Positions 8,505 to 47,595 of a stretch of 64,000 nucleotides of DNA are shown here, piece after piece. The position numbers were made by a program, and so were the translations under genes. The DNA is taken from NCBI RefSeq assembly GCF_016925615.1, contig NZ_CP070499.1, positions 682,001-746,000 of the forward strand, read 5' to 3'. A model generated the notes under the pieces. The model saw only the letters and a program-made list of their open reading frames with translations, did not search any database and had not been told where the DNA came from. Numbering within the stretch: position 1 is the first letter of the stretch; each line of letters starts with the position of its first letter. Origin of the DNA: Natronosporangium hydrolyticum (lineage in GTDB: Bacteria > Actinomycetota > Actinomycetes > Mycobacteriales > Micromonosporaceae).

Positions 8505-9563
8505 GTGTCGCAGACAGCGCGTATCGGGGTGATCGGTCTCGGCTGGATCGGTGGGGTCCATGCCGAATTCCTGACCAAGCTGGAGGGGATGGAGTTGGCC
8601 GGGGTGGCGGACGCCGCCGCCGAGGCCGCGGCGGAGCTCGGCGGCCGGTTCGGGGTTCCCCACTTCGACTCGGCGGCGGCGTTGCTCGAAGCCGTCGAGC
8701 TGGACGCCGTCATCGTCGCCGTGCCGCCCGCCTACCATCACGAGATCGTGCTGGCGGCGATCCGCCGGGGGGTCGGTGTGCTGTGCGAGAAGCCGCTCGC
8801 GCACGACCTGCCGACCATGGCCGAGATGGTGCAGGCGGCGGAGCAGGCGCAGGTGCCGACGATGATCGGGTTCCCGGCCCGGTTCGCGGTCTCCGCGGAG
8901 GAGTTCTGCCTGCTCCGGGACGCGGGCGAGCTGGGGGAGATCGAGCACATCCGGACCAACTTCCGGTTCTCCACCGCCAAGCATGACGAGTCGCACGGGC
9001 CGTGGCAGTGGAACAAGGCCGCCGGCGGTGGCGCGCTGCTGGAGGCGAGCCCCCACATGTGGGATCTGGTGCGCCACCTGACCGGCCAGGAAATCGTCGA
9101 GGTGTACGGGTTGGCCCGGCACTTCGACGGTGACCGCTCCGGCGCCGAGCGGGTCTTCACCGCCATCGCCAAGCTCTCCGGCGGCGCGTTGGCCACTGTG
9201 GATATGGCCTGTACTCTGCCGTGGGGCGCCACCACCGACAAGCGGACCGAGGTCTTCGGCACCGCCGGGATGGTCTACCTCGACGAGTTCACCAACTTCC
9301 TGACGGTCAACACCGAGGCGGGGTGCGAGATCGCGCCGGGCTCACGGATCTCCGGCACCGGCCACCCGGATGCGCTGTGGCACTCCCGAGTCAGCGGCGG
9401 GCTGCGCCGGGAACTGGAGTATTTCGCCCGCTGCGTACGTCAGGGCCTGACCCCGCAGCCGACGTTCCGGGACGGGCTGGAGGCCTCGTTGGCCGCGCAC
9501 GCGGTAGACCGCGCGATCCGACAGGAGCGACCGGTCCGGGTGGACGAGCTCAGGTCGGTCTAG
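8505..9563 (+). CDS. Gfo/Idh/MocA family oxidoreductase
   Basis: A 352-residue NAD(P)-dependent dehydrogenase. The Rossmann motif GLGWIGG is at residues 11-17, and the family's catalytic Lys lies in CEKPLAHD (about residue 95). The C-terminal substrate domain opens at about 120 and carries a GGGALLEASPHMWDLVRHL segment with the conserved His. It probably oxidises or reduces a hydroxyl of the imported sugar or sugar acid. The GTG start follows AAGGGA by 8 nt. The stop codon (TAG) shares its last base with the GTG of the downstream lactonase, indicating translational coupling. Confidence 0.88.
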   Translation: MSQTARIGVIGLGWIGGVHAEFLTKLEGMELAGVADAAAEAAAELGGRFGVPHFDSAAALLEAVELDAVIVAVPPAYHHEIVLAAIRRGVGVLCEKPLAHDLPTMAEMVQAAEQAQVPTMIGFPARFAVSAEEFCLLRDAGELGEIEHIRTNFRFSTAKHDESHGPWQWNKAAGGGALLEASPHMWDLVRHLTGQEIVEVYGLARHFDGDRSGAERVFTAIAKLSGGALATVDMACTLPWGATTDKRTEVFGTAGMVYLDEFTNFLTVNTEAGCEIAPGSRISGTGHPDALWHSRVSGGLRRELEYFARCVRQGLTPQPTFRDGLEASLAAHAVDRAIRQERPVRVDELRSV

Positions 9564-34652: not shown

Positions 34653-35453
34653 TCAATCTCCCTTCGCCAGCTCGGTAAGGTCTCGCTCCGCGTACAGCCG
34701 GTGTTCCCACTCTTCATTGAGGACGATCTGCAGGCAGTCCCGCAGCGGGAAACTCTCCACCCGGGGCCAGCCTGGTTCGGTGCGGCTGACGGTCTCGGCG
34801 AGCTGTTCGTCAGTGAGCGCCGTCAGGACATCGCGGACCATCGCCTGTCGTTCCCGTCGTACCACGAGCACCTCGTCAAGCGACGGTTCAGCGTCGCGGT
34901 CCCACGGGATGCCGTCCCACCCCGGCGCCTCGTCCCAGGGCAGATCCCATTGATTCCAGGGTGCAGGGTCACCCCGGACCATCCGGCCCACCCACGCGGC
35001 GCTGGCGAAGTTGAGATGCCGCAGCGTCTGGATGAACGACCATTCGTCGTCGATGCCGCGATGGAGCGCGGCTTCGGGGAAGGTCCGGGCCCGGGCGAGG
35101 GTCTCCTGCCACCGCCGCTCCAGGATCGCCCACGCCTGCCGAAACCCGTCCGCGTCGGTGGGGCGCATCTTCGCCCGCTCCGGGGTCCGACGGTTCAGCT
35201 CAGCCTCGACCAGTGGCGCGATGTCGACGCCGTTCACGACGACGTTCTGCAGCGCGCCGCTGATCTCAACGTTGATCATCTCGACGCCCCGCAGGCGGCA
35301 ATCCTGGAACAGTGCGGCGCGCAGCTCGGAGCCGGTGAAGTCGACCGAGCGCATGGTGGCGCGGTTGAGCCGGACCTTGGTGAAGGCGGAACCCTCGAAA
35401 TCGACGTGCTCGAAGCGTGCGTCGGTGAAGCCCCGCTCGCGAAACTCGGTCAT
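34653..35453 (-). CDS. Pentapeptide-repeat plus DinB-domain fusion protein
   Basis: A 266-residue two-domain protein. The first about 80 residues are pentapeptide repeats (ARFEHVDFEGSAFTKVRLNRATMRS and following, with the A/D-L/F pattern). From about 95 to 260 there is a DinB-like helical bundle (WSFIQTLRHLNFASAAWVGR, EWEHRLYAERDL) with possible metal-binding His residues. DinB-type proteins often use mycothiol as thiol co-substrate. The pentapeptide part may serve as a scaffold. It is the first gene of an operon with the hydrolase. Confidence 0.83.
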   Translation of the reverse strand: MTEFRERGFTDARFEHVDFEGSAFTKVRLNRATMRSVDFTGSELRAALFQDCRLRGVEMINVEISGALQNVVVNGVDIAPLVEAELNRRTPERAKMRPTDADGFRQAWAILERRWQETLARARTFPEAALHRGIDDEWSFIQTLRHLNFASAAWVGRMVRGDPAPWNQWDLPWDEAPGWDGIPWDRDAEPSLDEVLVVRRERQAMVRDVLTALTDEQLAETVSRTEPGWPRVESFPLRDCLQIVLNEEWEHRLYAERDLTELAKGD

Positions 35454-37265: not shown

Positions 37266-37350
37266 GGGCGCGGCGGGTAGGTATGCGGCACTAGGCCCGG
37301 TGAGTATCGCGGCCGATGCGGCGCCGGCCGGCAGCGGCTGAGATTGCGAC

Positions 37351-39222
37351 ATGACCGACGCGTACCTGACCGGTGCCGGTTCCTTCCTGCCGGGTGAGCC
37401 GCTGGACAACGATGAGATCGTGCGGCGGCTGGGGGCGCCGGCGAGCGGCGCGGCGGCCGCGGTGCGGGACCGGGTACTCGCGATGAACGGGATCCGGACC
37501 CGCCACTACGCACTCGACGCGCGGGGCACACCGTACCTGCTCAATGAGCAGTTGGCGGCCGAGGCCGTGCAACGTGCGATTAAGGAACGGGGCCTCGACG
37601 TCGAGCAGATCGGCATGCTCGCCGCCGCGACCACCCAGGGGGACCTGCTCGTGCCGGGGTTCGGGTCGATGGTGCACGGCCGGCTCGGTGGCGGGCCGTT
37701 GGAGGTGCTCTCCGCCGGTGGGGTATGTGCGTCGAGCGTGGCGGCGCTCGCCGGGGCGGTTCGAGGGGTTCGCCTCGGCGAGCACCCGGCGGCGGTAGCG
37801 GTCGGCTCGGAGCTGCCGAGCCGGTCGCTGCGCCAGCCCAGGTACGGGGACCGGCCGAGCTTCGATGTGGAGTTTCTGCGGTGGACGCTGTCCGACGGCG
37901 CCGGGGCGGTGGTGGTGGAGCCGGAGCCGCGCCCGGACGGCTTGTCGCTGCGGGTGGACTGGACCCACCTGGTCTCCTACGCCCACCAGCATCCGGCCTG
38001 CATGGTGGCCGGAGCGTCCGCCGGCGGCCGGCTGGATGCGGGGCAGACCTGGTTGGATCAGCCAACTCTCGCCGATGCCGCGAGCGCTGGGCAGGTCCGG
38101 CTGCACCAGGATGTGCGGGCGTTGCCCGGGCTGTTCCAGGTGGGGTTGCACGAGTTCATGAGTCTGGTCCGGTCCGGCCGGTTGTCGCCCGCCGCAGTAG
38201 ACCATGTGCTGTGCCACTACAGCGCCGAGCACTTCCGGTCGGACATCTTCAGGTTGCTGCGCGAGGCGGACCTGATGATCGATGAGCAGAGATGGTTCTC
38301 CAACTTGGCCACGCGGGGCAACACCGGCGCCGCGAGCATCTTCGTGGCGCTCGCCGAGTGTTGGCAGACCGGCCGGTTCAAGCCAGGAGACCGGGTGTTG
38401 CTGATCGTCCCCGAGTCGGGGCGCTTCTCCTTCGGCTTCGTGCATCTGACCTGTGTCGCCGGCGCCGACCCGGGGCAGCCGGCCCGGAGCGCCGCCCCGG
38501 CTGCGCCAATGGTTGAGCCGGTCGGGTCGCCGCTCGGCGAACCGTTGCCCGACGACAGCAGCGTCGTCCGGTGGACAGTGCTGGAGCTCGCGCAGGTGTG
38601 GTCCGACTTCGAGCGACGGCTGGCGGAGGTGCCGCTGGTACGCCGGATCGAGGCTGGAACGGCCACCGTGGCCGACTATCGCCGGCTGCTGCGCCAGCTC
38701 CGGCAGCAGGTGGTCGAAGGCGGGCGGTGGCTGGCGCGGGCCGGGTCGAACTTCTCGGTCGAGCTGTTCGAACTGCGCAGCGCGGCGATCCAGCACGCGG
38801 TCGAGGAGCACCGTGACTTCCGGATGCTGGAAGAAGACTACGTCTCGGTCGGCGGGGAGTTGGCCGACATCCAGTCCGCCGAGAAGAACGTCGGCTCGGA
38901 AGCGTTGTCGGCGTTCATGTTCCAGCAGGCGAGCCAGCCCGACCCGGTGGATCTGCTGGGCGCGATGTTCGTGATCGAGGGGTTGGGTGCGGCGAAGGCG
39001 ACCCGGTGGGCGCAGCGGTTGCGGCACCAGCTGGGGCTTGCGGAGCAACAGGTGCGGTTCCTGAGCTACCACGGCGACAACGACGACGACCACTTTGAAC
39101 ACCTGCGGGAGGTGCTGCGTTCGGGCGTGGTCGACCAACCGGCGGCGCGCCGGATCGTTCGCACCGCCCGGGTGGTCGCCCGGCTCTACGCCTGGCAGCT
39201 CGCGGAGGTCGACGATGAGTGA
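37351..39222 (+). CDS. KAS III-like synthase fused to a haem-oxygenase-like (HDO) diiron/iron enzyme domain
   Basis: A 623-residue bidomain protein. Residues 1-375 are a thiolase-fold, KAS III/FabH-like synthase with the full triad: Cys126 (GGVCASSV), His289 (LCHYSAEHF) and Asn324 (TRGNTGAAS). After a Pro/Ala linker (about 376-400), residues 401-623 form an all-helical HDO/iron-containing-redox domain. Its possible ligands are in EEHRDFRMLEEDY (485-497), FVIEGLG (540-546) and YHGDNDDDHFEH (573-584). A plausible role is condensing or loading an acyl group and then oxidising or cleaving it on iron. The next gene overlaps by 8 nt. Product unknown; function not previously known to me. Confidence 0.8.
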   Translation: MTDAYLTGAGSFLPGEPLDNDEIVRRLGAPASGAAAAVRDRVLAMNGIRTRHYALDARGTPYLLNEQLAAEAVQRAIKERGLDVEQIGMLAAATTQGDLLVPGFGSMVHGRLGGGPLEVLSAGGVCASSVAALAGAVRGVRLGEHPAAVAVGSELPSRSLRQPRYGDRPSFDVEFLRWTLSDGAGAVVVEPEPRPDGLSLRVDWTHLVSYAHQHPACMVAGASAGGRLDAGQTWLDQPTLADAASAGQVRLHQDVRALPGLFQVGLHEFMSLVRSGRLSPAAVDHVLCHYSAEHFRSDIFRLLREADLMIDEQRWFSNLATRGNTGAASIFVALAECWQTGRFKPGDRVLLIVPESGRFSFGFVHLTCVAGADPGQPARSAAPAAPMVEPVGSPLGEPLPDDSSVVRWTVLELAQVWSDFERRLAEVPLVRRIEAGTATVADYRRLLRQLRQQVVEGGRWLARAGSNFSVELFELRSAAIQHAVEEHRDFRMLEEDYVSVGGELADIQSAEKNVGSEALSAFMFQQASQPDPVDLLGAMFVIEGLGAAKATRWAQRLRHQLGLAEQQVRFLSYHGDNDDDHFEHLREVLRSGVVDQPAARRIVRTARVVARLYAWQLAEVDDE

Positions 39223-40111
39223 ACCGTCGGTGTGGGGCAGCATTCTGGCCGATCCGACGCTGCCGTTCGACCGGCCCACTCTGCGGCAGGTGGTGGCCGA
39301 TCAGCGGCGATGGTCACGGCGGTGGCTCTACCCGCTGGCCCGGGTGGTGTCGCGGATCGGGGTGGTGCTGATCCTGGTAATGAAACGCCTGATGCCGTTC
39401 GCGCCCCGACTACGTGCCCATGCGGCGATGGACCGGATGTGTGTCTGGTTCGTGCGCCGCTGTGTGGCGCCGGAGTCCGCCGGGCTGCTGCTGCGGCACT
39501 TCGTCATCGAGACGAACCTGCTCAACTTCGTCGTGCGTAACGCCGGCCTGCCGGGGATGCCGGAGGTGACGTTGCTGCCGACCGCGCTGCGGCAGCTCGG
39601 GGACCGGGCGGTGATCGAACACGACCTGAATGTGTACGAAGTGCTGGCGGCGTTGGGTTCCGGGGTGCGGGATCGGCCGTTGTGGGCGCGCGCCGCGAGC
39701 GAGCTGGACTATTCGATGCTGACGGTGCCGCAGCTGGATCTGGAGCCGGCGACCCGGCGGTGGCTACGGTTGGACATCCAGACCGCACTGTGTCTGATGA
39801 ATATCCCGTTCGCGCTGTGCCTGACCCCGCGTGAGTACCGGCGGGCGGTGCACTCGCTGCGGCTGGACGAGTCACTCCTGGCGATCTTGGCCACCCTCAC
39901 CGGGGACGCCACGTTCCGTAGCTGGCGTCCCGCGGGCACGTTGGTTCGGGTCGACAGCGCCGTCGACGTGCCGCGGGCGGTCTACGAGCACGCGGTGATC
40001 TGCGAACAGGCCCACGCACACCTACTGACCTGTCAGTCACTCGCCGCGCCGATCATGGACTTGGGTACATGGTCGGGGCGAAAATCCGTCCCAAACCCCA
40101 TGATCGACTAG
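39215..40111 (+). CDS. Unrecognised partner protein of the KAS-HDO enzyme
   Basis: A 298-residue, mostly helical protein that I do not recognise. It overlaps the KAS-HDO gene by 8 nt, so the two are translationally coupled. The region about 40-65 is hydrophobic and basic-flanked (VVSRIGVVLILVMKRLM), suggesting membrane contact. Possible metal residues lie in LLRHFVIETNLLNFV (about 90-104) and VIEHDLNVYEVL (about 133-144). The last 20 residues are encoded by a palindromic repeat (40050-40106), so the C-terminus may be a recent addition. The stop TAG shares the CTAG tetramer with the stop of the convergent ArsR gene. Confidence 0.7.
   Translation: MSEPSVWGSILADPTLPFDRPTLRQVVADQRRWSRRWLYPLARVVSRIGVVLILVMKRLMPFAPRLRAHAAMDRMCVWFVRRCVAPESAGLLLRHFVIETNLLNFVVRNAGLPGMPEVTLLPTALRQLGDRAVIEHDLNVYEVLAALGSGVRDRPLWARAASELDYSMLTVPQLDLEPATRRWLRLDIQTALCLMNIPFALCLTPREYRRAVHSLRLDESLLAILATLTGDATFRSWRPAGTLVRVDSAVDVPRAVYEHAVICEQAHAHLLTCQSLAAPIMDLGTWSGRKSVPNPMID
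40050..40106. repeat. GATCATG palindromic repeat, copy 1
   Basis: A 57-bp element with ends CGATCATGG and CCATGATCG and a partly symmetric interior (ACTTGGG against CCCAAAC). It lies inside the 3' end of the KAS-HDO partner gene and encodes its last residues. The same family occurs at 41360-41417 and 58083-58139. Confidence 0.7.
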
Positions 40112-45060: not shown

Positions 45061-46101
45061 CTAGGCGGTCTGCTGGGTGGCGTCGCGGACCTCCCCGACC
45101 AGCTCCTCCAACACATCTTCGAGGGCCGCGATGCCGATCGGCTGACCGGTGCCGTCGAGGATGAGGGCGAGGTGGGCGCCGGCGGTCTGCATGGTGGCCA
45201 GCGCCGACCGGAGGGTGTCGCCGGCGCGGACGATCGCGAAGGGCCGGATGAGGCTCGGGTCGATCGGCCGGCCGACCGCGTGTGGATCCTGCGTCAGCAC
45301 ATCCTTCACGTGCAGGTAACCGACCATCTCACCGGCTGGGTCGGTGACCGGGAAGCGCGAGTACCCGGTGCGGACGCAGGCGTCCTGCACCTGTGCCGGG
45401 GTGGTGTCGACCGGGAGTGTCACCAGCGAGTGGGCGGGCAGCAGGACCGTGCCGACGGTCTGTTCGTTCAACGTCAGCGCGTTGGTGAGCAGTGTGTGCT
45501 CTTCGTCGTCGAGCAGCCCTTCGCGCCGCGACTGGGTGATCAGCTCGGCGACCTGGTCGACCGTGTACGCCGATGCCAGCTCCTCGCGCGGCGCCACCCG
45601 GCACAGCCGCAGCACCGCGTTGGCGAGGGCGTTGAGGGTGACGATCAGCGGCCGCAGCATGGCGGTGATCCCAGCCAGCGGTGGCCCTAGCCAGAGCGCG
45701 GCGCGTTCCGGGCCGGCGATGGCGATGTTTTTTGGCACCATCTCCCCGAGCACCATGTGCAGGCACACCACGACCGTCAGCGCGATCGCGAACGCGATCG
45801 GGTGCAGCAGCTGCGGCGGCACTCCGAGCGCGGCGAGCCAGGGTTCGATCACGTGCGCCACCGCCGGCTCCCCGATCGCGCCTAGCCCCAGCGAGCAGGC
45901 GGTGATGCCCAGCTGTGCGCAGGCCATCATCAGCGACACCCGTTCCATCGCCCGCAGGGTGATCCGGGCCCGGCGGGAGGTGGCGGCGAGCGGTTCGATC
46001 TGGGAGCGGCGGGCGGAGATGAGGGCGAACTCGGCGCCGACGAAGAAGGCGTTGCCTGCCAACAGGGCGATGGCGATCAGGATCGCGGTGGTGTCGCTCA
46101 T
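45061..46101 (-). CDS. CNNM/CorC (hemolysin C-like) transporter-type protein, short form
   Basis: A 346-residue protein with a DUF21/CNNM membrane domain (about 1-170, starting with IALLAGNAFFVGAEFALISARR) and two CBS motifs (about 200-335, GTVLLPAHSLVTLPVDTTP and MVGYLHVKDVL). The C-terminal CorC_HlyC domain present in the neighbour is absent. CNNM proteins handle Mg2+/Co2+ or other divalent cations. The ATG overlaps the stop of the longer paralogue (ATGA), so the two proteins probably act together, possibly as a heterodimer. Confidence 0.88.
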   Translation of the reverse strand: MSDTTAILIAIALLAGNAFFVGAEFALISARRSQIEPLAATSRRARITLRAMERVSLMMACAQLGITACSLGLGAIGEPAVAHVIEPWLAALGVPPQLLHPIAFAIALTVVVCLHMVLGEMVPKNIAIAGPERAALWLGPPLAGITAMLRPLIVTLNALANAVLRLCRVAPREELASAYTVDQVAELITQSRREGLLDDEEHTLLTNALTLNEQTVGTVLLPAHSLVTLPVDTTPAQVQDACVRTGYSRFPVTDPAGEMVGYLHVKDVLTQDPHAVGRPIDPSLIRPFAIVRAGDTLRSALATMQTAGAHLALILDGTGQPIGIAALEDVLEELVGEVRDATQQTA

Positions 46102-47435
46102 TGCTGCCCGCCCGGTTCCGGGTCGCCCGGTAGCGTCTGCAGGCGTACCCGGTCGATCCGTAGCCCGTCCATCCGCTCCACGACCAGCTCGACTGGTTGT
46201 TGCCCGACCGTCTCGGTGACCCGGTCGCCGACGGTGGGCATCCGGCCGAGATGGTGCAGCACCAGGCCGGCGAGGGTGTCGTAGTGCTCGTCTTCGGCGA
46301 ACGGCAGCCCGGTCAGGGCGGCGGCTTCGTCGAGTCGCAGCAGCCCGGAGAGCGACCAGCCACCGTCGCCGCGGCGACGGGCGTGTGCGCCGGGCCGGTC
46401 GTGCTCGTCGGCGATGTCGCCGACCAGCTCCTCCACCAGGTCTTCGAGGGTCACCACGCCGTCGGTGCCGCCGAACTCGTCGATCACCACCGCCATCTGC
46501 AGTCCGTGTTGGCGCAGCTGGGTGAGGAGCGGGTCCAGTTCCAGGCTGGCCGGCACCCGCAGCGGGGCCACCATGACTTGCCGTAGCGGGGTGGTGGCGC
46601 GCGCTGGCAGAGGGACCGCGAGCGCGTGTTTGACGTGGACGAAGCCCACCACGTCGTCGACGTCACCCTGGTCGATGACGGGGAAGCGGGAGTGGCCGGT
46701 GGCTTCGGCGGCGTCGAGGATCCGGCGTACCGGTTGGTCGGCGGGGAGGAAATGCACCCGACGGCGGGGAGTCATCACGTCCTGGGCGGTGCGGTCGCCG
46801 AAGGCGAGGGTACGGGTCAGTAGCTGGGCGGTGGGGCGGGGCAGGGTGCCCTGCTGGGCGGAGCGGCGCACCAGCGAGGCCAGCTCCCGTGCGGAGCGGG
46901 CCGACTGTAGCTCTTCTTGTGGCTCGATCCCCATCAGCCGCAGCAGCCGGTTCGCGGCGCCGTTCAGCACCGTGATCAGCGGTCGGGCCGCAGCGGTGAA
47001 ACCGCGCTGAAGCGGGGTGACGGCCCGCGCGGTCGGCATCGGCCGGGCAATCGCAAGGTTCTTCGGCACCAGCTCACCGAAGATCATCTGGAAGATGGTG
47101 GCGATCGCCAGCGCCAGGATCACCGACACTGCGGTCATCGCACCGGGCGGTAGCCCGGCCAACCCCAACGGGCCGGTCAGCAGCGCCGCCAGTGACGGTT
47201 CGGCGATGAAGCCGATCAGCAGGCTGGTGACGGTGATGCCCAGTTGGGCGCCGGAGAGCTGGGTCGAGAGCGACCGCCGGGCGCGTAACACCCCGGCCGC
47301 GCCGCGGACCTTGCCGCGCACCGCCCGCTCAACGGCGGCGTGATCGACGGCGACCAGGCTGAACTCGGCCGCCACGAATACCGCGTTGGCGGCCACGAGC
47401 ACCAGCGCGAAGCTGAGGAGAAGCCACTCGGTCAT
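46098..47435 (-). CDS. CNNM/CorC (hemolysin C-like) transporter-type protein, long form
   Basis: A 445-residue protein. It has a DUF21 membrane domain (about 1-180, starting MTEWLLLSFALVLVAANAVFVAAEFSL), a CBS pair (about 215-335, QDVMTPRRRVHFLP and DDVVGFVHVKHAL) and a C-terminal CorC_HlyC domain (about 355-440). The ATG at 47435 has GGAG 8 nt upstream. It is the first gene of a two-gene operon with its short paralogue. Long/short CNNM pairs are common in actinomycetes and are linked to divalent-cation homeostasis. Confidence 0.88.
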   Translation of the reverse strand: MTEWLLLSFALVLVAANAVFVAAEFSLVAVDHAAVERAVRGKVRGAAGVLRARRSLSTQLSGAQLGITVTSLLIGFIAEPSLAALLTGPLGLAGLPPGAMTAVSVILALAIATIFQMIFGELVPKNLAIARPMPTARAVTPLQRGFTAAARPLITVLNGAANRLLRLMGIEPQEELQSARSARELASLVRRSAQQGTLPRPTAQLLTRTLAFGDRTAQDVMTPRRRVHFLPADQPVRRILDAAEATGHSRFPVIDQGDVDDVVGFVHVKHALAVPLPARATTPLRQVMVAPLRVPASLELDPLLTQLRQHGLQMAVVIDEFGGTDGVVTLEDLVEELVGDIADEHDRPGAHARRRGDGGWSLSGLLRLDEAAALTGLPFAEDEHYDTLAGLVLHHLGRMPTVGDRVTETVGQQPVELVVERMDGLRIDRVRLQTLPGDPEPGGQQ

Positions 47436-47595
47436 CGCGGGCACTCCGCTGGAGCGAACGGTTGCGGACCGGGTGGCCCAGATCTATGAGACGGATCGTC
47501 GTCGGTTTCCACAGTGCCACCAGTGTAGGACGCGTGCCGCGGCTGCGCCCCTGCCCGGGTGCCGCACCAACCGGAGCCGCTCGGCGCGGGGTACG

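Follow-up and report, generated by a model that had tools for sequence, protein, structure and literature searches.

The question raised by this locus is whether a carbon-carbon bond-forming enzyme and an oxidative domain, encoded as one polypeptide, belong to a single functional unit and, if so, what that unit might make. The window (the whole 64,000-nucleotide stretch of Natronosporangium hydrolyticum contig NZ_CP070499.1 that was analyzed) contains a gene that the initial annotation described as a KAS III-like synthase fused to an HDO iron-enzyme domain. A second gene overlaps it, and the pair was put forward as a minimal two-gene unit of an undescribed biosynthetic system.

A three-part cassette kept together in distant bacteria

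The cassette is laid out as follows.

37351-39222, plus strand: ketosynthase (KS)-HDO fusion protein (P0001, 623 aa), ATG start; the fused architecture occurs in 22/33 loci
37351-38457, plus strand: StlD/DarB-like KS domain, residues 1-369 (NF005293, 2.4e-95; StlD 5gk0, 1.2e-69; KS tree)
38458-38571, plus strand: Pro/Ala-rich interdomain linker, approximately residues 370-407
38572-39219, plus strand: HDO-fold (heme-oxygenase-like) domain, approximately residues 408-623 (PF14518; AF2; Foldseek)
39215-40111, plus strand: DUF6999 partner (P0002, 298 aa), ATG at 39215; 8-bp overlap with the fusion gene

The fusion ORF has coding-type GC contents of 0.74, 0.49, and 0.89 at codon positions 1, 2, and 3. 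A long antisense ORF (37291-39279, minus strand) mirrors this pattern and has no independent support. In fused relatives, the interdomain linker is 6 to 88 residues long and variable in sequence.

A search across genomes for the fused architecture and its partner, which had been proposed as a check, recovered 33 complete loci. They come from Actinomycetota, Cyanobacteriota, Pseudomonadota, and one Neomarinimicrobiota metagenome-assembled genome (MAG). KS, HDO, and DUF6999 were adjacent, collinear, and in that order in all 33. Therefore, chance adjacency of the parts was ruled out. KS and HDO were fused in 22 loci: those of the window genome, Dactylosporangium vinaceum, five genomes of the window organism's own family, eleven cyanobacteria, the Neomarinimicrobiota MAG, and three other Pseudomonadota. 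They were separate adjacent genes in the remaining 11, eight of which are proteobacterial (seven from an alphaproteobacterial search plus L090, placed among these by the KS tree) and three from another actinomycete family. Pseudoalteromonas sp. THAF3 (L142) has an additional split copy, carried by a replicon of 801 kb. This was the one annotated record that we inspected, and its parts had only separate generic names ("beta-ketoacyl-ACP synthase III," "iron-containing redox enzyme family protein," and "hypothetical protein"). There were two exceptions: MAG G402 has DUF6999 on another contig, and in a second MAG (L010/L057) the contig breaks between the cassette genes.

The overlapping, coupled second gene was thus borne out, with an 8-bp overlap in the window and adjacency in every complete locus. 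The two-gene unit needed revision. The partner is indeed obligate, but fusion of KS to HDO is optional, because alphaproteobacteria and one actinomycete family have separate genes. The unit is better described as a cassette of three components. The split actinomycete forms are nested inside fused ones in the KS tree. Therefore, at least one fission probably occurred, with adjacency retained. Evolutionary distances of the parts were correlated (r = 0.86 for KS-DUF6999, 0.60 for KS-HDO, and 0.49 for HDO-DUF6999), each value exceeding all 999 permutations, with shared genome ancestry contributing. That the three parts were kept together, fused or split, in such distant bacteria is strong evidence for one coupled reaction sequence.

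Two loci have other ORFs close to the cassette. In the cyanobacterial locus L044, the KS-HDO gene is separated from DUF6999 by an extra 202-aa ORF (8687-9295) with only a weak SHOCT match. In THAF3, a 634-aa hypothetical protein is encoded on the same strand, 26 bp downstream of DUF6999 (L142 10637-12541).

An all-against-all comparison of the ORFs around the cassette revealed no other neighbor shared across cassette groups. The remaining shared ORF groups were antisense or out-of-frame ORFs of the cassette genes or were confined to a few loci. Therefore, the three parts are the only widely shared unit, and a larger conserved gene cluster was rejected. No acyl carrier protein or aromatase was found near the cassette. 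Its neighbors are varied, and several have to do with oxidizing fatty-acyl chains or supplying electrons. A fatty-acid desaturase adjoins it in L089, L091, and L092, a fatty-acid hydroxylase in L091 and L092, a P450 in L007, and an acyltransferase/AMP-binding protein in L090. L017 and L018 have a siderophore-interacting-type flavoprotein beside it, and L052 has an FAD amine oxidase-like protein. In the window, its neighbors are a gene with weak resemblance to HIT and an ArsR-type regulator in convergent orientation. We also considered anti-phage defense or a phage origin, but neither PADLOC nor PHROGs gave a match, and there was no phage record. Elsewhere in the window, a 266-aa ORF (34653-35453, minus strand) combines pentapeptide repeats (residues 9-67) with a DinB_2 domain (residues 111-254), which would be unusual if the ORF is a single gene. 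Positions 45061-47444 (minus strand) encode a neighboring pair of CNNM/CBS (CorC-like) membrane proteins, whose genes overlap slightly and appear to be tandem paralogues.

Within a set of 61 genomes (the window genome and relatives), KS-HDO was present in six, all of which had DUF6999, and the cassette was absent from two congeners of the window organism. This distribution bears on the idea that the cassette serves stress physiology by altering membrane lipids or a pool of fatty-acyl groups and does not make a specialized metabolite. A cassette that stands alone, with no regulators, transporters, or conserved cluster around it, would suit such a role, as would its sporadic but wide occurrence, cyanobacteria included, and the amphipathic helix in DUF6999. 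However, such patchy presence among relatives is typical of accessory metabolism, and the nearest KS relatives make specialized metabolites. We therefore regard a stress-lipid role as very improbable.

The ketosynthase domain and its relationship to StlD/DarB

The KS domain has the following residues at its predicted active site, all of them invariant in the 33 loci.

37726-37728, plus strand: Cys126, nucleophile; aligns with the StlD Cys
37810-37812, plus strand: Glu154; aligns with a StlD Glu (5gk0)
38215-38217, plus strand: His289, catalytic; the aligned StlD His reads Ala in 5gk2
38320-38322, plus strand: Asn324, catalytic; aligned with StlD 5gk0

The Cys/His/Asn triad is therefore intact, as first reported. 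The domain was originally called KAS III-like, which is correct at the level of the superfamily, but it is not a generic KAS III. Among NCBIfam models it is nearest to StlD/DarB (NF005293, residues 4-369, 319.8 bits), and StlD (5gk0) is its closest solved structure. In the KS tree, the cassette proteins formed one group beside DarB, with moderate support (82/64), and far from FabH. This places the KS beside the StlD/DarB (cyclohexanedione/resorcinol) branch, as judged from its sequence. DarB and StlD themselves, from the dialkylresorcinol, flexirubin, and stilbene pathways (NF005293 and NF053539), have a KAS III-type domain that is alike over its full length, and they share the Cys/His/Asn residues and Glu154 with the cassette KS.

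Even so, the window KS is not a member of StlD/DarB by score, because its 319.8 bits are under the curated NCBIfam cutoff of 450 bits for NF005293. For comparison, a cyanobacterial relative (L048) scored 441.1 bits and a canonical DarB (L093) scored 601.7 bits. Among 249 Pseudomonadota, five genomes scored 561 to 601 bits, five scored 302 to 344 bits, and the rest scored below 67 bits. All five in the middle group were cassettes with HDO and DUF6999. Neither HDO nor DUF6999 was near any of the five high-scoring canonical DarB loci, which occupy a conserved larger cluster (DarG and DarH were present in L093, the one that we checked). DarA, named the DAR aromatase (PMC3949708), was found in both DarB control genomes searched, whereas a homologue was absent from 33 of the 34 cassette genomes. 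Among the cassette genomes, only that of Dactylosporangium vinaceum (L141) contains a DarA-like gene (G397 C1:7438981-7439775), approximately 2.5 Mb from the cassette. Therefore, this strain may have both routes. In summary, the cassette differs from DarB/StlD systems in its KS score, in having an HDO fused or adjacent, in lacking DarA in nearly all genomes, and in having DUF6999 in every complete locus.

Because the KS scores below the NF005293 cutoff and is only moderately separated from DarB, its condensation may differ from that of DarB. One alternative, close to the original suggestion of a ketone, alkene, or shortened acid product, is that the KS joins two acyl chains in an OleA- or FabH-like condensation to form an open-chain beta-keto acid or thioester. 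The HDO would then cleave or decarboxylate this product, giving a long-chain ketone, an alkene, or a shortened acid. The subcutoff score agrees with this, as do the fatty-acid desaturase and hydroxylase genes beside some loci, and UndA- and BesC-type HDOs cleave C-C bonds according to sections of a review of HDOs (PMC13108848). However, the KS is much closer to StlD/DarB than to FabH or other KAS III enzymes, and the Glu of StlD is retained at position 154. An open-chain product is therefore unlikely in our judgment, and the KS affiliation points to a cyclic dione or resorcinol instead.

The HDO-fold domain and its predicted metal site

The C-terminal domain was identified as an HDO domain in three ways. 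PF14518 ("iron-containing redox enzyme") matched residues 445-613 above its gathering score (1e-10), the AlphaFold (AF2) model had a pLDDT of 94.7, and Foldseek matched that model to 3dde (TM 0.85, 1.5e-7), CtCADD (0.81), and UndA (0.72). The nearest solved folds were 3dde, TenA, and CADD, with UndA further down. A helical tail of some other kind, which had been a concern, was not seen. At rank 49 in the Foldseek results was PDB entry 3bjd, deposited as a "putative 3-oxoacyl-(acyl-carrier-protein) synthase," a name that may be a carry-over from KS-HDO fusions.

The candidate metal ligands lie in three places, each invariant in the 33 loci.

38794-38817, plus strand: helix motif H482-x3-E486-x2-D489 (3dde profile alignment)
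38977-38979, plus strand: predicted metal ligand E543, which aligns with a 3dde Glu
39070-39093, plus strand: predicted metal motif H574-x3-D578-x2-H581; HxxxDxxH is also in 3dde

Invariant residues of the domain were His482, Glu486, Asp489, Glu517, Glu543, His574, Asp578, and His581. Two elements of the HDO ligand pattern are present, a Glu in the middle core helix (E543) and HxxxDxxH in the last one (H574, D578, and H581). The ligand assignment is based mainly on the profile alignment with 3dde, the best sequence match (4.6e-11), because the PF14518 comparison set included some wrong-frame ORFs. E543 and the HxxxDxxH residues are as in 3dde. In the first core helix, E486 is invariant, and by the 3dde alignment the position of the usual His is an invariant Asp489; the profile-profile match to actinobacterial PF14518 proteins was too weak to be used for this register. 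The His/Asp/Glu metal-type residues described initially are thus conserved, but one ligand position appears to have Asp for His. Most HDOs have three His and three carboxylates, as stated in part of the HDO review (PMC13108848), and so a site with two His and four carboxylates, if the predicted ligands are right, would be unusual. His482 could still be a ligand. With Asp at the usual His position, a different cofactor or reaction is possible for this HDO.

Other known HDOs (UndA, CADD, BesC, and SznF; PF14518) share the fold, E543, and the HxxxDxxH helix with the cassette domain. They differ from it at Asp489, by alignment, and in the ketosynthase fusion or coupling. No such fusion or coupling is mentioned in the sections of the HDO review on distribution, C-C cleavage, and outlook (PMC13108848).

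The Asp at position 489, and the presence of TenA proteins among the nearest folds, also fit a reading in which this domain is a metal-free or single-metal cyclase or hydrolase (TenA- or PqqC-like) with the product of the KS as its substrate. DUF6999, with its many invariant polar residues, three His included, would then be the redox or tailoring enzyme. Against this, E543 and the HxxxDxxH helix do not vary across the loci and are hallmarks of HDOs that bind metal, and 3dde carries the same motifs. We consider a nonoxidative role quite improbable, and an oxidase-type HDO is the reading that we carry forward.

DUF6999, the proposed reactions, and their significance

P0002 belongs to PF22523/DUF6999 (1.9e-82, 276.8 bits against a gathering score of 27). 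Residues Arg94, His95, Asn109, His136, Asp137, Asp187, Arg210, Ser214, Asp218, His259, and Glu264 are invariant in the 33 loci. Its AlphaFold model had a pLDDT of 86, for which Foldseek against PDB and BFVD (viral folds) returned nothing at E < 0.1, and a profile search of the PDB returned nothing significant. Membrane contact of the protein, as suggested initially, is possible because it has a single moderately hydrophobic helix (Kyte-Doolittle maximum, 1.9). The family is rare, with matches over the cutoff in 4/397 actinomycetes, 8/339 cyanobacteria, and 6/337 alphaproteobacteria, and no paper in the open-access collection searched names it.

What might these three proteins do together? A dedicated condense-then-oxidize module is the reading in which we have good confidence, and its product is probably lipid-derived and made in two linked steps. 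The desaturase, hydroxylase, P450, and acyltransferase/AMP-binding genes that adjoin some cassettes fit such a module. By homology to DarB/StlD, Cys126 of the KS would take two acyl thioesters derived from fatty acids, one of them beta-ketoacyl and the other enoyl, probably directly from fatty acid synthesis. Head-to-head condensation would then give a 4-carboxy-2,5-dialkylcyclohexane-1,3-dione-type intermediate. DarB condenses two activated acyl units to 4-carboxy-2,5-dialkylcyclohexane-1,3-diones, as a passage in PMC5515871 states. By this analogy, a cyclohexanedione-type condensation by the KS is evenly poised between likely and unlikely.

In the second step, the HDO would oxidize the intermediate by using O2 and a carboxylate-rich iron site. 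We propose it as the oxidative partner of the KS because of the carboxy-dione product of DarB, the missing DarA, and the decarboxylation chemistry of UndA. UndA converts a fatty acid to a 1-alkene and CO2, and of the two routes proposed for this, one involves H abstraction at C3 (PMC13108848). The most economical step would be UndA-like: the hydrogen beta to the ring carboxylate, on the alkyl-bearing ring carbon, would be removed, and CO2 would be lost. The resulting cyclohexenedione would tautomerize to a 2,5-dialkylresorcinol, and the HDO would replace the missing aromatase DarA. Cyclohexanedione-type condensation followed by HDO oxidation, with no requirement that a resorcinol be the end product, falls a little short of an even prospect. 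The narrower role of the HDO as an aromatizing oxidative decarboxylase is doubtful. DUF6999, the obligate third part, is probably an enzyme or a redox or assembly partner at the membrane surface. Its invariant His, Asp, and Glu residues suggest that it may be a second enzyme outside this scheme. The full picture would be a new type of two-step synthase in which a DarB-like KS would pass its product to an attached HDO-fold iron oxidase with an unusual site of two His and four carboxylates, assisted by DUF6999 as a third enzyme with no fold match, to make an undescribed class of lipid-derived rings in cyanobacteria, actinomycetes, and proteobacteria. We offer it tentatively.

The alternative pimeloyl routes also use a KAS III enzyme (BioZ) and a diiron enzyme cleaving acyl-ACP (BioE), whose diiron center has been likened to that of cyanobacterial aldehyde deformylating oxygenase (PMC12915131). 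This pairing resembles the cassette, but BioZ and BioE were not described as one system (PMC12915131). A biotin/pimeloyl route for the cassette was rejected because no bio genes were among the cassette neighbors scanned. The parts are not neighbors inside a known pathway. We found no description of the KS-HDO combination, or of the Caulobacter genes mentioned below, in the open-access literature searched, which is not proof of absence, and to this extent the original view that the arrangement is undescribed holds. Each half of the fusion resembles a known kind of protein, but the combination, the obligate DUF6999, and the Asp substitution match no described system that we found. We regard the cassette as related to the DarB/StlD systems but working with an oxidase-type domain from the HDO superfamily.

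Caulobacter vibrioides, a control genome, has members of both PF22523 and PF14518, as matches at the genome level. This species is genetically tractable, and the function of the cassette could be tested there if both genes prove to be adjacent. If the proposed chemistry is true, C-C bond formation and O2-dependent oxidation would occur in a single polypeptide, and there would be an aromatizing alternative to DarA. A further type of reaction, and perhaps a new set of ligands, would be added to the HDO superfamily, and DUF6999 would gain a role.
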